Assembly: GCA_023261595.1 (NCBI GenBank)
Contig: JAHFOQ010000004.1
Coordinates: 1-32,321, forward strand
DNA length: 32,321 nucleotides
From: a bacterium
GTDB taxonomy: Bacteria > Patescibacteriota > Saccharimonadia > CAILAD01 > BJGX01
Direction of reading: 5' to 3'
Under the pieces are notes generated by a model, which saw nothing but the letters and a program-made list of their open reading frames with translations, ran no database searches and was not told the origin of the DNA. Position 1 is the first letter of the stretch; every line of letters begins with the position of its first letter. Below, piece after piece: positions 7,674 through 30,307 of this stretch. A program made the translations under genes and the position numbers.

Positions 7674-9800
7674 TTAGCTGGCGCGAGTTGATGCATCGCC
7701 AGATTCACGAGCAGCAGTGTATTTACCTTTAAGTTCTTCAGCTACATTGCCCGGTACTTCGGCATAGTGATCAAATTCCATGGCGTAAGAAGCTCGACCT
7801 TGGGTAAGGCTTCGCAAACTCGTTGCATATCCAAACATTTCAGCCAGCGGCACAAAAGTTCGAATTACTTTAGCTCCAGATCGGTCTTCCATTTCATCGA
7901 TACGTCCACGCTTTGCGTTGATGTCCCCAATTACATCACCCATTGATTCTTCTGGAGTAGTTATTTCTACTTTCATAATTGGCTCCATAATAACTGGCTG
8001 AGCTTTACGCACACCTTCTTGTAGGGCCATAGAAGCGGCAATTTTAAAGGCTACTTCAGAACTATCAACTTCGTGATAACTACCATCGTATAGCTTAGCG
8101 TGAATATCTACCACAGGGTATCCCGCAATAACACCATTACTCATAGCTTCAATAATGCCCTGTTCTACTGGCTTAATATATTCTTTTGGCACAGCACCAC
8201 CAACAATGGCATTTTCGAATTCAAAGATTTTTCCTTTTTCGTCATCTTCGGTATGTACAAGCGGACTAAGTTCGAGCCAAACATGACCAAACTGACCACG
8301 ACCACCAGATTGTCGAACAAATTTACCTTCGATCTTCGTAGTACTCTTAATAGTTTCTCTAAAAGCTACTTGTGGTCGACCAACGTTCGCTTCTACTTTA
8401 AACTCACGCTTCATTCTGTCAACGATAACTTCTAGGTGAAGTTCGCCCATACCATCAATAATAGTCTGTCCGCTATCTTCATCAGTATGTACTCTAAAGG
8501 TTGGATCTTCTTCTGAAAGACGACCAAGCGCGATACTCATTTTTTCTTGATCGGCTTTGGTTTTTGGTTCGATAGCAATACTAATAACTGGTTCTGGAAA
8601 AACAATACTTTCGAGTACAATATTGCCACCTGGATCACACAGTGTGTTACCTGTTACTGTTGCTTTTAGGCCTACAGCAGCAGCAATTTCACCTGCAAAT
8701 ACTTCGTCTACTTCTTCGCGGTTATTTGCGTGCATACGTACAATACGACCAACACGTTCTTTTTCGCCCGTAGAGCTATTTAAGATGTAACTACCGGTTT
8801 TTACTGATCCGGCATATACTCTAAAGAAAGCAAGTTTACCTACAAATGGATCGGTAGCGATTTTAAATGCTAAAGCTGCAAATGGAGCTTCGTCACTTAC
8901 TTCTAAAACTTTATCTTCGCCCGTTTTGGTGTCAATAGCAAGTGGAGGTGTTACTTCGAGTGGGTTTGGTAGATAATCAGTTACGATGTCGAGCAATTTT
9001 TCTACAATTACCCCACGACCGTCACCGCCAGAAACGATAAAGAAATCGCCCCGTAAAACCGATTTACGAATTACGGTTTTAATTTCTGCTTCAGTAAGTT
9101 CAGTTCCTTCAAGATATTTTTCCATTATTGTATCGTCAGCTTCCACAGCAGCTTCAATAAGATGTTGTCGGTATTTTTCTGCTTTTTCTTTCATATCAGC
9201 AGGAATTTCGCTTTCGATAAGTTCTTTGTCGGTATAGTCTTTATAGCTATATGCTTTCATCGAAATAAGATCTACAACGCCATTAATTTGCTGTTCGAAT
9301 CCGATTGGTAAATGAATTGGATAGGCATGTTTGGTTAGTCGTTCGTGAATAGATTCGAGTGATTTATAAAAGTCCCCGCCAGTTTGATTAATCTTGTTAA
9401 TAAAACAGATACGTGGCACGCCATACTTATCAGCTTGACGCCATACAGTTTCTGATTGAGGCTCTACACCCATTTTGCCGTCGAAGACCGTAACGGCGCC
9501 GTCGAGTACACGAAGACTGCGTTCTACTTCTACCGTAAAGTCGATGTGACCTGGGGTATCAATGATGTTAATGCGTTTTTTATTCCAAAAACAGGTTGTG
9601 GCAGCAGAGGTAATAGTGATACCACGTTCGCGTTCTTGTTCCATCCAGTCCATAGTAGCTTCACCTTCATGAACTTCACCAATTTTGTGCACTTTACCAG
9701 TACGATAAAGAACTCCTTCAGTTACGGTAGTTTTACCTGCATCGATGTGGGCAATAATACCAATATTTCGAGTGTCTTCTAAGCTATAATCACGGGCCAT
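7674..9800 (-). CDS. fusA: Elongation factor G
   Basis: 708 aa; [47 protein letters not shown]. Confidence 0.98.
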
Positions 9801-9872
9801 GGGGTTTACATTCTCTCCTTCTAAATTTATTGCAAAATGAAAAATGTGCCTTTTAACGGCTATTTCTGAATA

Positions 9873-9901
9873 ATTGTAGCAGATTACTTCGACACTGGCA
9901 A
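9873..9901 (-). promoter_or_regulatory. Putative fusA promoter
   Basis: Minus strand TTGCCA-N17-TACAAT. Confidence 0.6.
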
Positions 9902-9933
9902 CTGTATATTCACTGTGGACTAGGAGTAATTTA

Positions 9934-9962
9934 TTGACAAAATATACTATTCTCCGTAGAAT
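9934..9962 (+). promoter_or_regulatory. Putative sigma70 promoter
   Basis: TTGACA-N17-TAGAAT upstream of 10001 ORF. Confidence 0.75.
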
Positions 9963-10000
9963 AGCGATGTTCTCAGTGTACCTTCGAAGCGAGGTTCAAA

Positions 10001-10237
10001 ATGAGTATCGGAATCGTTCTACTCTTTGTTCTTGCAGTTGTGTTGATATGTATTGGATTTATTTTTATCTATGCATGGCATAAGTCACCAAGTAATTACG
10101 AAGGTGCTGCATCGGCAGAGATCGCAAAATATCTACGTAAAAATGACAGGAATGCTTTGCTTGGAGTTTTGTTTGTGTATTGGACGGTTGCGCTAGCAAT
10201 TCTCTTGTACTGTTTTAATTCTATTCGCTCTGGTTAA
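10001..10237 (+). CDS. Small membrane protein, unknown
   Basis: 78 aa with two predicted TM segments; own promoter and terminator. Confidence 0.65.
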   Translation: MSIGIVLLFVLAVVLICIGFIFIYAWHKSPSNYEGAASAEIAKYLRKNDRNALLGVLFVYWTVALAILLYCFNSIRSG

Positions 10238-10254
10238 CACCAGAGCATTTTTAT
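10227..10254 (+). terminator. Intrinsic terminator overlapping the stop codon
   Basis: GCTCTGGT-TAAC-ACCAGAGC-ATTTTTATT. Confidence 0.8.
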
Positions 10255-10282
10255 TGACAAGTTTGTTTGACAAGAGTATATT
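10254..10282 (+). promoter_or_regulatory. Putative sigma70 promoter
   Basis: TTGACA-N17-TATATT upstream of 10326 ORF. Confidence 0.65.
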
Positions 10283-10325
10283 TATATAGTCTTATTGCAA
10301 CCTCCTCGAATTCGAAAGGGATAGT

Positions 10326-10907
10326 ATGGATTCCAAGATGATTGCTGCACTACCTTGGTTACTTGAGATAGCAAAGAAGAAAGAGTTTCCAGATTCAGTC
10401 TTTGCGGTCGAGAGTATGGCCGATGTTATGTGGAATATCGCTCGAGAGAACGGTAGTGATGATCCAGAAAGTTGTGAGGCCGTCACAGCTCAGTGCAATC
10501 TTCTGGGCGCAAGTTACGAAGAAATTCTCAATCTCTATATCCACACTGTCTCGACTGAGTTAAATACCCGTTTTGAAAAAGGCAAAGATTCTATAGAAGA
10601 TCTCTTCTTTGGACTCTGTATGATTGCCGCAACTAAGTTAGATGATACTGGCTCTGAAGTGATTCACGTTGAGTGGTCAATGTGGGATGGTTATGATCCA
10701 ACAGACCTGATTCGATTGCCAACCGACAGATTCGCACTCATACCTGATATCCCATACACCATCTTCAGTCAAATTGTGAATATTTATGGTCGATCAGGTA
10801 TGTACCTAGATACACTCCTTGGTGAAGTTGCCTTCAGAATGAAGCAAATTTTCGAGAGAGACAGAGACAAGTTCGTTATTCGACGTTTGAGCGAACTTCA
10901 GCTCTAG
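10326..10907 (+). CDS. Hypothetical protein
   Basis: 193 aa; own promoter and terminator. Confidence 0.7.
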   Translation: MDSKMIAALPWLLEIAKKKEFPDSVFAVESMADVMWNIARENGSDDPESCEAVTAQCNLLGASYEEILNLYIHTVSTELNTRFEKGKDSIEDLFFGLCMIAATKLDDTGSEVIHVEWSMWDGYDPTDLIRLPTDRFALIPDIPYTIFSQIVNIYGRSGMYLDTLLGEVAFRMKQIFERDRDKFVIRRLSELQL

Positions 10908-10913
10908 TCTATT

Positions 10914-10940
10914 CCCCAGCTAACGCTGGGGTTTTTATTT
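10914..10940 (+). terminator. Intrinsic terminator
   Basis: CCCCAGC-TAAC-GCTGGGG-TTTTTATTT. Confidence 0.85.
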
Positions 10941-11597
10941 ATACGTAAGTTCTACAAAAAAATGATCTTTCGATTCTTTAGCAAGTCGCGCAAGTTCTGA
11001 CATACTTACCATGTATGGTTCATGGCCAAATTCTTCTTGCCAAGCCCAAAATGCTTTACCTGGCTTTTTGGTAGAAGTAATTTCTCCATATGGATTCTTG
11101 CCATAAAAAAGGTGAAACAGAATTTGACTTACTGGTTCGCCAGATTCATAGATAGTAATATATCCATCACCTTTATGGGTAAGTTGGCACTGCAGACCAG
11201 ATTTTTCTTTTAGTTCTCTGTGTGCTGCCTCACTTATCGTTTCACCCAAATGTATCTTGCCATACACAAATCCCACTTGATCTATCAGGGGTTGGCGAGC
11301 ACGTTTATATACTAGCCACTGTCCCTTCTCGTTCTGACACGTTATAAGTGTAACAATATTCGGCTGTTTACGCGGCTTATACGTTTCTAAACTCATATTA
11401 TCGGCTAATTGTTTACCTTCAGCACTAAGCAGGTATAAGCCTTCATCATTTTTTACAACCAGGCCATCTTTCATAAGCGACTTTAGATGATACATAAAAT
11501 GATTACTTTCAATGTGTTTTGGCTTAAGTTCGCTAAACCGTAAGTACGGATGAGTTATGAGACGTGCTAAAATTTCTTTTTGAATTATATGTGTCAT
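10935..11597 (-). CDS. Winged-helix-like N-terminus + Nudix domain protein (candidate regulator)
   Basis: Nudix-box-like GKIHLGETISEAAHRELKEKSGL (second Glu of EE is Lys); N-term MTHIIQKEILARLITHPYLRFSELKPKHIESNHFMYHLKSLMKDGLVVK resembles a wHTH. Start at 11597 preferred because the promoter -10 lies at 11605-11610. Confidence 0.75.
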   Translation of the reverse strand: MTHIIQKEILARLITHPYLRFSELKPKHIESNHFMYHLKSLMKDGLVVKNDEGLYLLSAEGKQLADNMSLETYKPRKQPNIVTLITCQNEKGQWLVYKRARQPLIDQVGFVYGKIHLGETISEAAHRELKEKSGLQCQLTHKGDGYITIYESGEPVSQILFHLFYGKNPYGEITSTKKPGKAFWAWQEEFGHEPYMVSMSELARLAKESKDHFFVELTYK

Positions 11598-11604
11598 TAC
11601 TTTC

Positions 11605-11633
11605 ATACTATATCCACAAATTAATTGAGTCAA
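11605..11633 (-). promoter_or_regulatory. Putative promoter of Nudix/wHTH gene (near-leaderless)
   Basis: Minus strand TTGACT-N17-TAGTAT; -10 ends 7 nt before the ATG at 11597. Confidence 0.6.
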
Positions 11634-11694
11634 ATACAGCTTAGTCAAATTATTTTGAGTGAAAATATCTAGACTAGATAAATAATTGACTCAA
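11625..11694. promoter_or_regulatory. Cluster of TTGASTCAA-type operator-like repeats between divergent genes
   Basis: TTGAGTCAA (11625-11633), TTAGTCAAA (11641-11649), TTGAGTGAA (11655-11663), TCTAGACTAGA (11669-11679), TTGACTCAA (11686-11694). Confidence 0.6.
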
Positions 11695-11732
11695 ATATAC
11701 AGTGGAAAAGTACCTTAACATAAGGAGCAGGA

Positions 11733-12347
11733 ATGAAAAAAATCGTAATAACTGGTGGTCCTTGTGCCGGTAAGACTACTGTAGTTGAGTTTCTAAGGGA
11801 AGAACTGCAAACTGAAGCTATTTTTGTACCTGAAGCAGCTACCATGCTTTTGAGTGGTGGCTTTCCACCACCGCCCGAGGGCCAATTTCTTGGTGAAGAG
11901 CAATTTAATGTCTGGATGCAACAATTTCAGGCTGCTGTGTATCACACTCAAATCGCTCTAGAAGATTTAGCAATGTCTGAGGCTGAACGTGGTAACAAAA
12001 GCTTAATTCTTCACGACCGTGCCCGAGCAGACGTTATTGCCTATCACCCGCACGGTTTGGCTGGTTTTATTTTTCAATTCCATATTAATGCGCCGTCAAT
12101 TCATGCACACTACGATATGGTAATTTTTCTGGAATCACTTGCAGTTGGTCAGCCAGAAATGTTTGGTCGGTTTGGCAACGAACATCGTTATGAGAGCTTG
12201 GAACATGCCATAGAAGCCAATGCGCGCACGAGAAGAGCTTGGTATACACATCCAAATTTTCGCACCATTGATAGCAGACTTTCTCTACAAGAAAAGACCA
12301 TTCAGGTTCGTGAGTTGATCATCCAAACAATGAAAGAAGGTGAATGA
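11733..12347 (+). CDS. AAA_28/NadR-like P-loop NTPase or kinase
   Basis: MKKIVITGGPCAGKTTVVEFLREEL; Walker A GGPCAGKTT near the N-terminus; LILHDRARAD Walker B-like region. Confidence 0.75.
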   Translation: MKKIVITGGPCAGKTTVVEFLREELQTEAIFVPEAATMLLSGGFPPPPEGQFLGEEQFNVWMQQFQAAVYHTQIALEDLAMSEAERGNKSLILHDRARADVIAYHPHGLAGFIFQFHINAPSIHAHYDMVIFLESLAVGQPEMFGRFGNEHRYESLEHAIEANARTRRAWYTHPNFRTIDSRLSLQEKTIQVRELIIQTMKEGE

Positions 12348-12610
12348 TGACAAACAAAAAACCTGGCTATCATCTCAGAGATATTACCAAACAACCCATT
12401 GGCACTATTGCTAAAATTCGTGAAGAGCTTGAAGAGCTTGAAGATGCCATTGAACAAGAATGCAAACTAATGGCACTGCAAGAACTGAGTGATATGGTGG
12501 GAGCAATTCGATTATATCTAGAAAATGAATACCCAAACTTTACACTGCAAGATCTCATTACTATGAGTGATATTACCCGTAGAGCCTTCGAGAATGGAGC
12601 CAGACAATGA
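12344..12610 (+). CDS. MazG-like all-alpha NTP pyrophosphohydrolase-type small protein
   Basis: EELEELEDAIEQ...ALQELSDMVGAIRLYLE matches the EExxE...ExxD layout; start overlaps the previous stop. Confidence 0.6.
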   Translation: MMTNKKPGYHLRDITKQPIGTIAKIREELEELEDAIEQECKLMALQELSDMVGAIRLYLENEYPNFTLQDLITMSDITRRAFENGARQ

Positions 12611-13161
12611 TAGACCATGCAAAGATTGCTAAAGCCGAAGAGTACTATGCAAAAGTTGGTTTTCAAAAAATTGATGTGCCTTGGATAGTGGGTCGAGAAG
12701 CGTATCAAGCAACATTTCCTCTTACCGGTAACTTTCCGTACTTTACTCTGGGTGGTTTTTTGCCAGCCAGTGGTGAACAATGTTTTGTTCAGTTGTTGCT
12801 GGATGGTAGATTACCTCAAGGAAAATATCAGTGTACTACACCGTGCTTTCGGGACGAACTAGAAGAAGATGAATTACATCTTCCCTACTTCTATAAGGTC
12901 GAATTGATAGAAGTTACAGACGAAGCTGGTAGATATATGGAATTGGCACATATTGCATTTGACTATTTTACACAGTACTGTTCGGTAGAATATGAATACT
13001 TACCGGCTGAACAAACTGACATTATCGAACACTACACTGGGATAGAGCTTGGCAGTTATGGCCGTAGGCATTACAAAGGACTCGTGTGGAATTACGGCAC
13101 CGGGCTTGCTGAACCGCGACTTAGTCAAGTTCTCGCCAAAATACAGCCTGATCAGAAATGA
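12607..13161 (+). CDS. Minimal class II aminoacyl-tRNA synthetase-like protein
   Basis: Motif 2-like YQCTTPCFRDELEEDELHLPYFYKVELIEV and motif 3-like GTGLAEPRLS in only 184 aa, no anticodon-binding domain; start overlaps the previous stop (ATGA). Confidence 0.65.
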   Translation: MIDHAKIAKAEEYYAKVGFQKIDVPWIVGREAYQATFPLTGNFPYFTLGGFLPASGEQCFVQLLLDGRLPQGKYQCTTPCFRDELEEDELHLPYFYKVELIEVTDEAGRYMELAHIAFDYFTQYCSVEYEYLPAEQTDIIEHYTGIELGSYGRRHYKGLVWNYGTGLAEPRLSQVLAKIQPDQK

Positions 13162-13175
13162 TCGGGTATTTTTTA
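13147..13175 (+). terminator. Intrinsic terminator of the NTPase operon
   Basis: CCTGATCA-GAAA-TGATCGGG then TATTTTTTAT. Confidence 0.75.
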
Positions 13176-13180
13176 TACTA

Positions 13181-13208
13181 AAAAACCACCATATGCAGGT
13201 GGTTTTTT
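13181..13208 (-). terminator. Intrinsic terminator of rpsL-rpsG
   Basis: AAAAACCACC-atatgca-GGTGGTTTTTT. Confidence 0.8.
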
Positions 13209-13217
13209 AGTTACTCG

Positions 13218-13694
13218 TTAGGATCGAGCAAAGTGAGCAAAAGCTTTGTTGGCTTCGGCCATTTGGTGAGCATCTTGTTTCTTCTTCATAGCTTCACCTT
13301 CACCATTTGCAGCAGCAATGAGTTCGGCAGAGAGTTTCTGATCGAAGCTTTTGCCATTTTTACTGCGGGCACTATCTAAGATCCAGATAAGGGCGTAATG
13401 AGTTTTACGATCTCCCCTAACTTCCATTGGCACTTGATAGTTAGCACCACCAATACGTTTGCTCTTTACCATTACGGCTGGGCTAACGTTTTTTACTGCT
13501 AGTTCGAGAATTTCTACAGGTTCTTTTTTACTCTTTGCGGCAGCACTTTCCATAGCTGAGTATACAAGATTTTCGGCAAGACGTTTTTTTCCGTCTTTCA
13601 TTACCTTATTGATGGTTTTTTGCACCAACACGTTCTGATATTTTGTATCAGCTGGAATGATTCGCTTAAGAGATTTAGTAGTTTTTCTTGGCAT
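13218..13694 (-). CDS. rpsG: 30S ribosomal protein S7
   Basis: Start at MPRKTTKSLKRIIPADTKYQNVLVQKTINKVMKDGKK; S7 family. Confidence 0.96.
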   Translation of the reverse strand: MPRKTTKSLKRIIPADTKYQNVLVQKTINKVMKDGKKRLAENLVYSAMESAAAKSKKEPVEILELAVKNVSPAVMVKSKRIGGANYQVPMEVRGDRKTHYALIWILDSARSKNGKSFDQKLSAELIAAANGEGEAMKKKQDAHQMAEANKAFAHFARS

Positions 13695-13695
13695 A

Positions 13696-14118
13696 TTATT
13701 CTTTTCCACCCTTTTCGAGTTTGGTTCCGTATTTGCTACGACCTTGCTTACGATCTGATACCCCACCGGTGTCGAGCGCACCACGTACAACATGGTAACG
13801 CACACCAGGTAAGTCTTTTACACGACCGCCACGAATCAATACCACTGAGTGTTCTTGTAGGTTATGGCCTTCACCGCCGATATAGGCAGTTACTTCCATT
13901 CCGTTAGTAAGACGCACACGAGCTACTTTACGCAAAGCCGAGTTCGGTTTCTTTGGTGTTTGAGTAAACACCTTAGTACAAACGCCACGCTTAAGTGGAG
14001 AGTTCATACTGGTTGAACGAACTTTCAGTGCGTTAAAGCTCTTCCCCAAAGCTGGAGCCTTGGTTCTCTTAACTTTACGAACGCGTGGTTTGCGAATTAG
14101 TTGATTGATTGTTGGCAT
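13696..14118 (-). CDS. rpsL: 30S ribosomal protein S12
   Basis: [12 protein letters not shown]...[20 protein letters not shown]...[17 protein letters not shown]. Confidence 0.98.
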
Positions 14119-28440: not shown

Positions 28441-29754
28441 TTATTCCGAAATAATCACCGTACCAATTGCACGTAGTTTCTCTTCAAATTTCTCATACCC
28501 TCGCTCGATAGTTTTAATTCCATGAATAGTAGTTTTACCTTTAGCAACGAGTGCCGCAACTACATAACTAAAGCCTGCACGTAAATCTGGAACTTGAATT
28601 TCAGCACCATGTAAACTCGTCGGCCCGTTAATAATTGCGCTATGAAGATGGTTACGATTTTCAAATCGACAGTGCGTACCACCTAGACAATCTTGGTAAA
28701 GTTGAATTTTGGCCCCCATTTTATTGAGCGCATTAGTAAAACTAAAGCGATCTTCGTAAACAGTTTCGTGAATCGTACTGCTTCCTTCGGCTTGGGTTAA
28801 TAAAACCACAAAAGGCTGTTGCCAGTCGGTCATAAAGCCTGGATGCACGTCTGTTTCTAATGTAATGCTTGTTAGAGGACGGCCTCGCCAAAACTCTATT
28901 CCACCTCCTCGAACCGCAAACTCACCCCCTACTCGACGAAATGTATTCAGAAATGTCATCATTGGTTCTTGTTGTGCGCCATGCACAAATATCTTACCGT
29001 CGGTTACAGCAGCAACACAGGCCCAACTTGCTACTTCAATCCGATCCGTTAAAACTTTGTGATCAAAACCATGTAGTGTATCTACTCCTTGAATGGTAAT
29101 AATTCTGTTCGTACCAACTTCGATAATTGCACCCATCTTTTGCAACACACAAATTAAATCAATAATTTCTGGTTCGACTGCTGCATTTCGAAGTTCCGTT
29201 ACTCCTTTAGCCAATACTGAGCTAAGCAGTACTTGTTCGGTTGCTCCTACACTTGGATAAGAAAGTTCTATCTTTGCTCCACCGAGTTTATTTGCCTTAA
29301 TAACAAGTGCTTTTTCACTTTCTTCTACTTCGGCACCCATACTCTTAAGCGATTGAAGATGAAAATCTACAGGTCGTGGACCTATTTCACAACCACCCAG
29401 TGTGGGTAAATGTGCTTCGCACAATCGATGCAAGAGCGGGCCGGCAAATAAGATTGGTATTCTACTCGTACCAGCAATTTTATGGAGTGCGTTTGTGTCT
29501 GGCTGATGAAGCTCAGCTGGTGTAATAACAATTACTCCATCGCTAGTTTCTTTTACTTCACCACCCACTTCTCGGATCATTTCGCTTACCACACGTACAT
29601 CTTCTATGTCTGGCACATTAGCAATAGTACTTGGTTGTTCACTTAAGAGTGCTGCAACCATAATCTTTGTTACTGCGTTTTTAGCTCCGCGAACTTTTAT
29701 GGTACCTGTAAGTTTTTTACCACCTTCTATTACAACTGTGTCGCTCTTTTTCAT
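28441..29754 (-). CDS. murA: UDP-N-acetylglucosamine 1-carboxyvinyltransferase
   Basis: Start MKKSDTVVIEGGKKLTGTIKVRGAKNAVTKIM; EPSP synthase-like repeats. Confidence 0.94.
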   Translation of the reverse strand: MKKSDTVVIEGGKKLTGTIKVRGAKNAVTKIMVAALLSEQPSTIANVPDIEDVRVVSEMIREVGGEVKETSDGVIVITPAELHQPDTNALHKIAGTSRIPILFAGPLLHRLCEAHLPTLGGCEIGPRPVDFHLQSLKSMGAEVEESEKALVIKANKLGGAKIELSYPSVGATEQVLLSSVLAKGVTELRNAAVEPEIIDLICVLQKMGAIIEVGTNRIITIQGVDTLHGFDHKVLTDRIEVASWACVAAVTDGKIFVHGAQQEPMMTFLNTFRRVGGEFAVRGGGIEFWRGRPLTSITLETDVHPGFMTDWQQPFVVLLTQAEGSSTIHETVYEDRFSFTNALNKMGAKIQLYQDCLGGTHCRFENRNHLHSAIINGPTSLHGAEIQVPDLRAGFSYVVAALVAKGKTTIHGIKTIERGYEKFEEKLRAIGTVIISE

Positions 29755-29784
29755 AGTGAGATTTATTATAGCACTTTGGATATT

Positions 29785-29810
29785 AAAAAATCCGAACATA
29801 ATTTGTTCGG
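29785..29810 (-). terminator. Intrinsic terminator
   Basis: CCGAACA-taatt-TGTTCGG with A6 on + side. Confidence 0.75.
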
Positions 29811-29812
29811 GT

Positions 29813-30307
29813 TTACATACGTGGGTAGTTGCCGAGCGAACATTGATGGCAATTTTCGCCACGGCTTGAGTCAAACGCGTAATTATGATTCACACAAATG
29901 TAGGCATCACGAGGTTTGGCCAGCTGATGTGTGGTTGTAATCCAAACCGCTGCGCGAGAGTTGTAAGCCGAGCAGGCTTCTTTGAATTCTCTGTATGGCT
30001 TATCTGGCTGGTTCAGTATATACCAACACGGAGGATCATTCCGAAATTCAAGTCCTTCTTCGCAAGTCGCTCGCCAACCAAAGTGCATAAACCTATCATG
30101 TGTAGAAAAAACTGGAACGACTTCTACAATTTCTACCCTGAATTCATTGACTACCAAATAGCCATCGTGTGGTATTCCAAACTGATCAATATATAGAGGA
30201 TCCTTACTTGATTTGAACTGGACTTCCCATAAGGTGAATTTTATCCCAATTCGAACCAACTCGGTGGTAGGCATAGGGACTGTCTCGGTAAACTGAGTTT
30301 TACTCAA
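29813..30307 (-). CDS. Hypothetical protein with Cys/His-rich C-terminus
   Basis: 164 aa; C-terminal CVNHNYAFDSSRGENCHQC. Confidence 0.65.
   Translation of the reverse strand: MSKTQFTETVPMPTTELVRIGIKFTLWEVQFKSSKDPLYIDQFGIPHDGYLVVNEFRVEIVEVVPVFSTHDRFMHFGWRATCEEGLEFRNDPPCWYILNQPDKPYREFKEACSAYNSRAAVWITTTHQLAKPRDAYICVNHNYAFDSSRGENCHQCSLGNYPRM

Follow-up and report, generated by a model that had tools for sequence, protein, structure and literature searches.

Several proteins derived from class II aminoacyl-tRNA synthetases (aaRS) work outside translation, among them EpmA (PoxA), AsnA and HisZ, which come respectively from LysRS, from AspRS/AsnRS and from HisRS. Stand-alone aaRS-like enzymes have repeatedly proved to do unexpected chemistry. 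The amino acid:carrier protein (aa:CP) ligases, derived from SerRS, AlaRS or GlyRS, are also stand-alone class II cores without a tRNA-binding domain, and are presumed to adenylate their substrate; for none of the aaRS paralogues aa:CP ligases, AsnA, EpmA, HisZ and SLIMP is a MazG-type partner described, at least in the part of the source available (PMC9437257). A combination of this general kind is found in the phage Z-cluster (PurZ, MazZ and DatZ), where a MazG-like enzyme accompanies an ATP-using, amino-acid-joining enzyme (PMC8342488).

Here we describe a pair of genes, coding for a minimal SerRS-like core and a MazG-like protein. It is a widely conserved two-enzyme system of phages, apparently undescribed, and a few Saccharibacteria have a version of it that is predicted to be regulated. 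A literature search whose reach excluded many subscription papers returned no description of the pair; one phage paper mentions a 'seryl-tRNA synthetase' and also MazG genes, but as unlinked items of ordinary metabolism (PMC8953757). Hundreds of phage genomes carry the aaRS-like core, almost always tied to this one partner enzyme. In databases the core goes under the name of tRNA synthetase, and its partner is entered as a protein of unknown function.

Gene layout of the Saccharibacteria locus

The window (the whole 32,321-nucleotide stretch analysed) belongs to a genome of 0.8 Mb (G000, contig C19), and the relatives carrying the same genes are Candidatus Saccharibacteria. An operon sits between fusA (9800) and rpsG (13218), on the strand opposite to both, divergent from a regulator gene:

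10935..11597, minus strand: wHTH-Nudix regulator (Pfam NUDIX 1e-8, homologue starts, Nudix box comparison)
11733..12347, plus strand: AAA_28 P-loop kinase-like NTPase, GGPCAGKTT (Pfam AAA_28 5e-15; homologues adjoin wHTH-Nudix genes in other Saccharibacteria)
12344..12610, plus strand: probable MazG/HisE-type all-alpha NTP pyrophosphohydrolase, phrog_6408, 88 aa (phrog_6408 6e-37, invariant columns, PRA-PH matches, model, folds)
12607..13161, plus strand: minimal SerRS-like class II aaRS catalytic core, phrog_4806, 184 aa (phrog_4806 9e-37, PDB profile search, model, fold search, SerRS alignment)
13146..13167, plus strand: hairpin resembling an intrinsic terminator, overlaps the aaRS-like stop codon (stem, then T-rich tail)

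This layout agrees with what a sequence-only reading of the DNA had proposed. The three plus-strand genes overlap by ATGA at 12344-12347 and 12607-12610, in keeping with the translational coupling that had been proposed, the operon ends in a terminator-like stem with a T-rich tail at 13146-13167, and the divergent gene is present at 10935 to about 11597. The ORF listing starts this last gene at TTG 11648; because its homologues start at the equivalent of ATG 11597 (MTHIIQ...), it likely spans 10935-11597. The folds claimed for the four proteins were also supported, by Pfam, PDB profile and model searches.

In this family of Saccharibacteria the rpsG-fusA gap (window 9800-13805) is a hotspot for cargo: relatives (L156-L166) have differing small genes there, usually with a wHTH-Nudix gene. 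A 193-aa hypothetical protein without family match is encoded at window 10326-10907 and kept beside the wHTH-Nudix gene and fusA in the same genus (L157). At the same place, the operon is absent from G001, of the same genus, and G010 has the kinase only.

A conserved pair of genes, mainly in large phages

Genes of the cassette do recur together outside this genome, so that a lack of co-conservation elsewhere, which would have refuted the proposal, was not borne out; however, what is conserved is not the four-gene unit first proposed. The conserved core is two genes, the MazG-like and the aaRS-like one of phages, regulator and kinase being separate. A scan of viral contigs with the aaRS-like alignment only gave 80 loci, 79 of which have a MazG-like gene adjacent or nearby, and overall the MazG-like gene is present at 137 of 138 aaRS-like loci. 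In Lazarusvirus (Acinetobacter phages) the partner at first seemed to be missing, a sensitivity artefact: a diverged, extended MazG-like copy of 207 aa overlaps the aaRS gene. The extension of these Lazarusvirus proteins is C-terminal and about 115 aa long (L187:3357-3980). In L133, an Acinetobacter-type phage record, the aaRS-like gene is present and a MazG partner was not detectable.

Both genes are on the same strand in all 92 non-redundant pair loci, with a median gap of 8 bp (more than 300 bp in 13 loci), the MazG-like gene coming first in 66 and the aaRS-like gene in 26. Three single-gene fusions, aaRS then MazG, were found: in an archaeal MAG (L150), in G480, and in the cultured phage Ma-LMM01 (MAP_131). 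Pairing and catalytic intactness (see below) are well supported by these sequence comparisons.

Among 50,697 phage records, tblastn detected the aaRS-like gene in 270 and the MazG-like gene in 213. Carriers comprise phi92-like phages, Phapecoctavirus, Certrevirus, phages of Caulobacter, Brevundimonas, Acinetobacter and Microcystis, and huge metagenomic phages. The pair is thus spread over diverse large phages, and very few cellular genomes have it: a pattern scan of one genome per species over 85,462 species gave at least 7 pair loci, a minimum, as loci in which the peptide patterns are not conserved would escape such a scan. A plasmid search gave no match. Four records of about 146 kb named as Campylobacter jejuni phages (MG065639, MG065645, MG065656, MG065689) match the query as E. 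coli phi92-like phages do; their host label may be wrong.

When the neighbours of the pair in 95 non-redundant loci were clustered to look for a third partner, nothing but generic phage genes came up, none at more than 6 loci. A radical SAM gene adjoins the pair in G480 and Ma-LMM01, and was rejected as third partner for lack of recurrence elsewhere. In G480, from another Patescibacteria class, it ends 12 bp before the fused aaRS-MazG gene (L201:3912-5417), with a thymidine kinase and an NrdR-like gene nearby. After the pair, phi92 has a gene for a GatB/YqeY-like 'tRNA amidotransferase' (phrog_1460) and RNR genes (L008:5837-6271). Genes for dNTP metabolism (RNR, thymidylate synthase, DHFR, dNMP-kinase), counted as those matched by seeds within about 4 kb of the pair, were found at 9 of 95 non-redundant loci, and a general clustering of the pair with dNTP genes was thereby ruled out. 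Neither protein matched the PADLOC anti-phage defence models at an E of 0.1.

The aaRS-like protein has a SerRS-type active site

A search of the PDB with the single aaRS-like sequence gave nothing, and matches were obtained with a 91-row profile alone: its 19 best matches are all SerRS (best E=6e-8), followed by PylRS, and HisRS is absent from the 44 matches. The AlphaFold model (pLDDT 92, pTM 0.88) was matched by Foldseek with the catalytic domains of PylRS, SepRS and SerRS (E about 1e-8). The HisZ, AsnA and EpmA types had been named for comparison; by the PDB profile, the closest aaRS in sequence is SerRS, not HisRS, AsnRS or LysRS.

Motifs 1, 2 and 3 of the class II aaRS catalytic fold are all present, with the arginines of motifs 2 and 3 (P25, R82 and R171 in at least 90% of rows). 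The family shows about 26% column identity. Fifteen residues are invariant in the 91 rows (T36, S55, E57, Q58, P79, C80, F95, K97, E99, D138, E147, G149, S150, T165, A168), and R82, P170 and R171 are kept in at least 90%. Upon alignment with a Saccharibacteria SerRS, the TxE-type loop (S55/E57), P79, C80 and R82 of motif 2, F95-K97-E99, E147-S150, T165 and R171 of motif 3 coincide with SerRS residues. Nearly all catalytic residues of the family are identical to the aligned SerRS residue, S55 aligning with Ser/Thr; alignment and PDB profile agree on a SerRS-type active site.

The N-terminal tRNA-binding arm of SerRS is absent from the 184-aa protein, which confirms the missing tRNA-binding domain noted earlier, and compared with SerRS the loop of motif 2 has lost 6 residues. 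No NCBIfam model for SerRS (including TIGR00414) or HisRS matches the protein, and the window genome has an ordinary full SerRS elsewhere, on contig C12. Taken together, SerRS-equivalent residues kept, arm absent and motif 2 shortened point to tRNA-independent amino-acid adenylation. This is in line with the adenylate-forming enzyme outside translation that the sequence-only reading had thought likely. The database names histidyl- or seryl-tRNA synthetase are misleading as to function. Residues equivalent to E57, E99 and T165 touch the bound serine in SerRS, so that serine is our best guess for the substrate.

The MazG-like protein keeps its metal ligands

In 90 aligned MazG-like rows, the metal-site residues E27, E28, E31 (EExxE) and E47, D50 (ExxD) are invariant, as are Y9, H10, K24, G53, T78, F82 and R87. 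The model (pLDDT 93.6) places EExxE and ExxD on helices 22-37 and 41-62, a pairing of helices that is the mark of the all-alpha NTP pyrophosphohydrolase superfamily. Pfam matches are weak: 62 of the 90 members match PRA-PH (PF01503) and 6 match MazG (PF03819), and the window protein stays under the gathering cut-off for PRA-PH (15.6 bits versus 21.3). The six best folds returned by Foldseek are all MazG/PRA-PH, with non-significant E values (>0.5). The protein thus probably has a MazG/PRA-PH fold, and the retention of all metal ligands suggests real nucleotide chemistry.

A native regulator-kinase unit joined by the pair

The product of the first operon gene had been described as a NadR/AAA_28-like NTPase. 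The AAA_28 assignment stands (PF13521, 56.4 bits versus a cut-off of 27, E=5e-15), but the NadR part is not supported, as no NadR model is among the NCBIfam matches. Searching phages by tblastn with this protein gave no relative, and the kinase is therefore placed outside the phage pair.

The regulator passes the Pfam NUDIX cut-off (35.7 bits versus 21.1, E=1e-8). In its Nudix box, GKIHLGE..RELKEKSGL, the second catalytic Glu is missing. Most of the 30 wHTH-Nudix members likewise have REUxEK, with this Glu replaced, in place of the intact box GX5EX7REUXEEXGU, and this points to sensing rather than hydrolysis.

Of the 295 genomes in the class, 97 have genes of the wHTH-Nudix family, frequently several of them, and 4 have the pair. 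Neighbours of wHTH-Nudix genes in Saccharibacteria are commonly AAA_28 or PRK-family kinases, or MazG enzymes. In five Saccharibacteria with the pair, a wHTH-Nudix gene or a wHTH-Nudix/kinase unit always adjoins it. The AAA_28 kinase and the wHTH-Nudix regulator are the older unit, native to Saccharibacteria, that the pair joined. In the tree, the Saccharibacteria pair proteins fall in two places among viral ones, a single Saccharibacteria clade not being rejected (p-AU 0.2). An extra domain, CYTH-like by eye (e.g. IERKYI) and unnamed by Pfam, was also seen in P-loop kinases, both of the AAA_28 and of the PRK/uridine kinase type (L009:6990-8174, L010:7369-8547, L151:3832-4983).

A candidate operator shared by regulator and pair

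The gap at 11607-11732 holds three TTGASTCAA-like copies, spaced by 30-31 bp (no strand assigned):

11625..11633: candidate operator copy 1, TTGAGTCAA, palindrome TTGASTCAA
11655..11663: candidate operator copy 2, TTGAGTGAA, one mismatch, 30 bp from copy 1
11686..11694: candidate operator copy 3, TTGACTCAA, 31 bp from copy 2

By pattern search, the paired arrangement is unique to this gap within G000. A perfect TTGASTCAA lies at most 150 nt upstream of 17 of the 30 wHTH-Nudix genes, versus 0.18% in shuffled sequence, and all 5 Saccharibacteria carrying the pair have the palindrome in the region of its promoter. It is likely to be the operator of the wHTH-Nudix protein; its presence upstream of both regulators and pair makes the pair a predicted member of the wHTH-Nudix regulon. 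The Nudix regulator had been proposed to sense the nucleotide/adenylate pathway of this cassette. Sensing as such is plausible, because the second Glu is lost in most members and the palindromic operator recurs. Another perfect TTGAGTCAA is found at window 29866-29874, where a minus-strand ORF (28441-29874) has its start region.

Discussion

Pairing, fusions, intact active-site residues, absent tRNA-binding parts and a recurrent operator-like palindrome are read directly from sequence. We propose that the pair is a two-component, tRNA-independent amino-acid-activating system, mainly of large phages, and give this explanation as a whole a probability of about 0.5. The minimal SerRS-type core would adenylate a small alpha-amino acid, possibly serine, with ATP. 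The MazG-like enzyme would act with it, physically or in sequence, and either supply an NMP acceptor or dispose of a by-product, NTP or pyrophosphate. The amino acid would then pass to a nucleotide or other small molecule rather than to tRNA. A few Saccharibacteria would have taken up the pair beside their native wHTH-Nudix/P-loop kinase unit, and transcribe it from the TTGASTCAA-bearing promoter region, to which the wHTH-Nudix protein would bind; the degenerate Nudix domain of this regulator may sense a nucleotide-like ligand. The window kinase could act on the product of the pair, though it is not conserved with it.

We infer adenylation activity, serine, complex formation and operator binding from these features, the nucleotide acceptor being the weakest step. 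A nucleotide or small-molecule acceptor is favoured by the absence of tRNA parts, of a carrier protein and of any further partner that recurs; neighbouring genes, with dNTP-type genes near so few loci, give no pointer to it. Against an active enzyme counts the fact that an aaRS-like core is able to lose catalysis, as HisZ did. More tentatively, the pair may make a new aminoacylated nucleotide (e.g. seryl-NMP), a phage-encoded metabolite or signal for which the MazG-like enzyme supplies the acceptor, Saccharibacteria having recruited the pair into a Nudix-sensed nucleotide regulon.

The aaRS-like core might instead give its activated amino acid to a protein, for instance one of the host while the phage takes it over; the MazG-like protein would then serve as adaptor or clear away a by-product. 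Such is the known fate of stand-alone class II cores (EpmA on EF-P, aa:CP ligases on a carrier protein), Ser-specific aa:CP ligases descend from SerRS (PMC9437257), and the pair crosses hosts, as a takeover function would. But neither a carrier-protein gene nor any other recurrent third gene adjoins the pair in the 95 non-redundant loci, although a carrier could be encoded elsewhere, and a partner retaining every metal ligand suggests a real activity on nucleotides. We consider this unlikely.

Rather less probable is a role in nucleotide signalling or pool control, where the core would make an Ap4A-type dinucleotide, the MazG-like enzyme trim NTPs and, in Saccharibacteria, the Nudix regulator sense the product. 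Ap4A synthesis by aaRS cores is general knowledge, and wHTH-Nudix genes of Saccharibacteria adjoin P-loop kinases and MazG enzymes. The regulator is, however, mostly found without the pair, and the pair-bearing phages have no wHTH-Nudix regulator in the loci searched.

We give little credit to phage DNA hypermodification following Z-cluster logic, in which the MazG-like enzyme would make a dNMP, the aaRS-like core add an amino acid, and kinases return the product to the dNTP pool. The precedent is MazZ, which supplies dGMP to the amino-acid-adding PurZ (PMC8342488); the window operon has a P-loop kinase, and a few phages have the pair inside dNTP gene clusters. This scheme is disfavoured because phi92-like and Phapecoctavirus carriers are reported to be exceptionally susceptible to restriction systems (PMC8594841); moreover only 9/95 pairs have dNTP genes nearby, and Saccharibacteria also carry the pair.

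Equally doubtful is a regulatory pseudoenzyme, i.e. an aaRS-like protein whose role is limited to amino-acid sensing and to allosteric control of the MazG-like enzyme, in the manner of HisZ with HisG. HisZ is indeed a class II core without catalysis (PMC9437257), and the partner here belongs to the MazG/HisE superfamily and is sometimes fused with the aaRS-like protein. Yet over 91 divergent sequences the arginines of motifs 2 and 3, the glutamate of the TxE-type loop and the equivalents of SerRS active-site residues vary little or not at all, which is not the pattern of a pseudoenzyme. As for a minimal phage seryl- (or histidyl-) tRNA synthetase charging tRNA, the PHROGs and GenBank names and the SerRS-like active site speak for it, but with 184 aa, no N-terminal arm, a shortened motif 2 loop, no NCBIfam SerRS/HisRS match, no HisRS among the 44 PDB matches, a host SerRS and a MazG partner not needed for translation, it is highly improbable.

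Two-component amino-acid activation, our preferred reading, would if true and extended to aminoacyl-nucleotide synthesis put the class II aaRS core to a new use, in company with an NTP pyrophosphohydrolase. Carriers include E. coli phages grown in the laboratory (phi92-like, Phapecoctavirus), as well as Acinetobacter, Caulobacter and Microcystis phages. Since E. coli K-12 is a plating host for the carriers EmilieFrey and JohannJBalmer, the function is open to direct testing.

Comparison with described systems

With the SerRS core, the aaRS-like family shares motifs 1-3, the TxE-type loop, the F/K/E residues after motif 2, the E..S residues and the GT..R of the motif 3 region; it differs by its length of 184 aa, the lack of a tRNA-binding arm, the short motif 2 loop and a near-obligate MazG-like partner. 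EpmA, AsnA and HisZ have other ancestors, whereas this core is nearest SerRS. Compared with aa:CP ligases, the pair has no carrier protein gene in its conserved neighbourhood, and its partner is an NTP pyrophosphohydrolase.

MazG/HisE (PRA-PH) enzymes, including MazZ, have the same EExxE and ExxD metal sites, with weak profile and fold similarity. In contrast, phrog_6408 is a family of its own of 80 residues, with an invariant YH near its start and T...F....R near its end, and is nearly always beside or fused with the aaRS-like core. NrtR-type regulators, like the regulator of the window, join an altered Nudix box to a winged helix and use a palindromic operator, but in the window the wHTH is N-terminal, and the protein belongs to a separate Saccharibacteria family with the candidate operator TTGASTCAA. 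Finally, the architecture of the phage Z-cluster, a MazG-like enzyme with an ATP-using enzyme that joins an amino acid, is also that of the pair. PurZ, however, is an adenylosuccinate-synthetase homologue, and the gene beside the MazG-like gene here codes not for a PurZ homologue but for a class II aaRS core.
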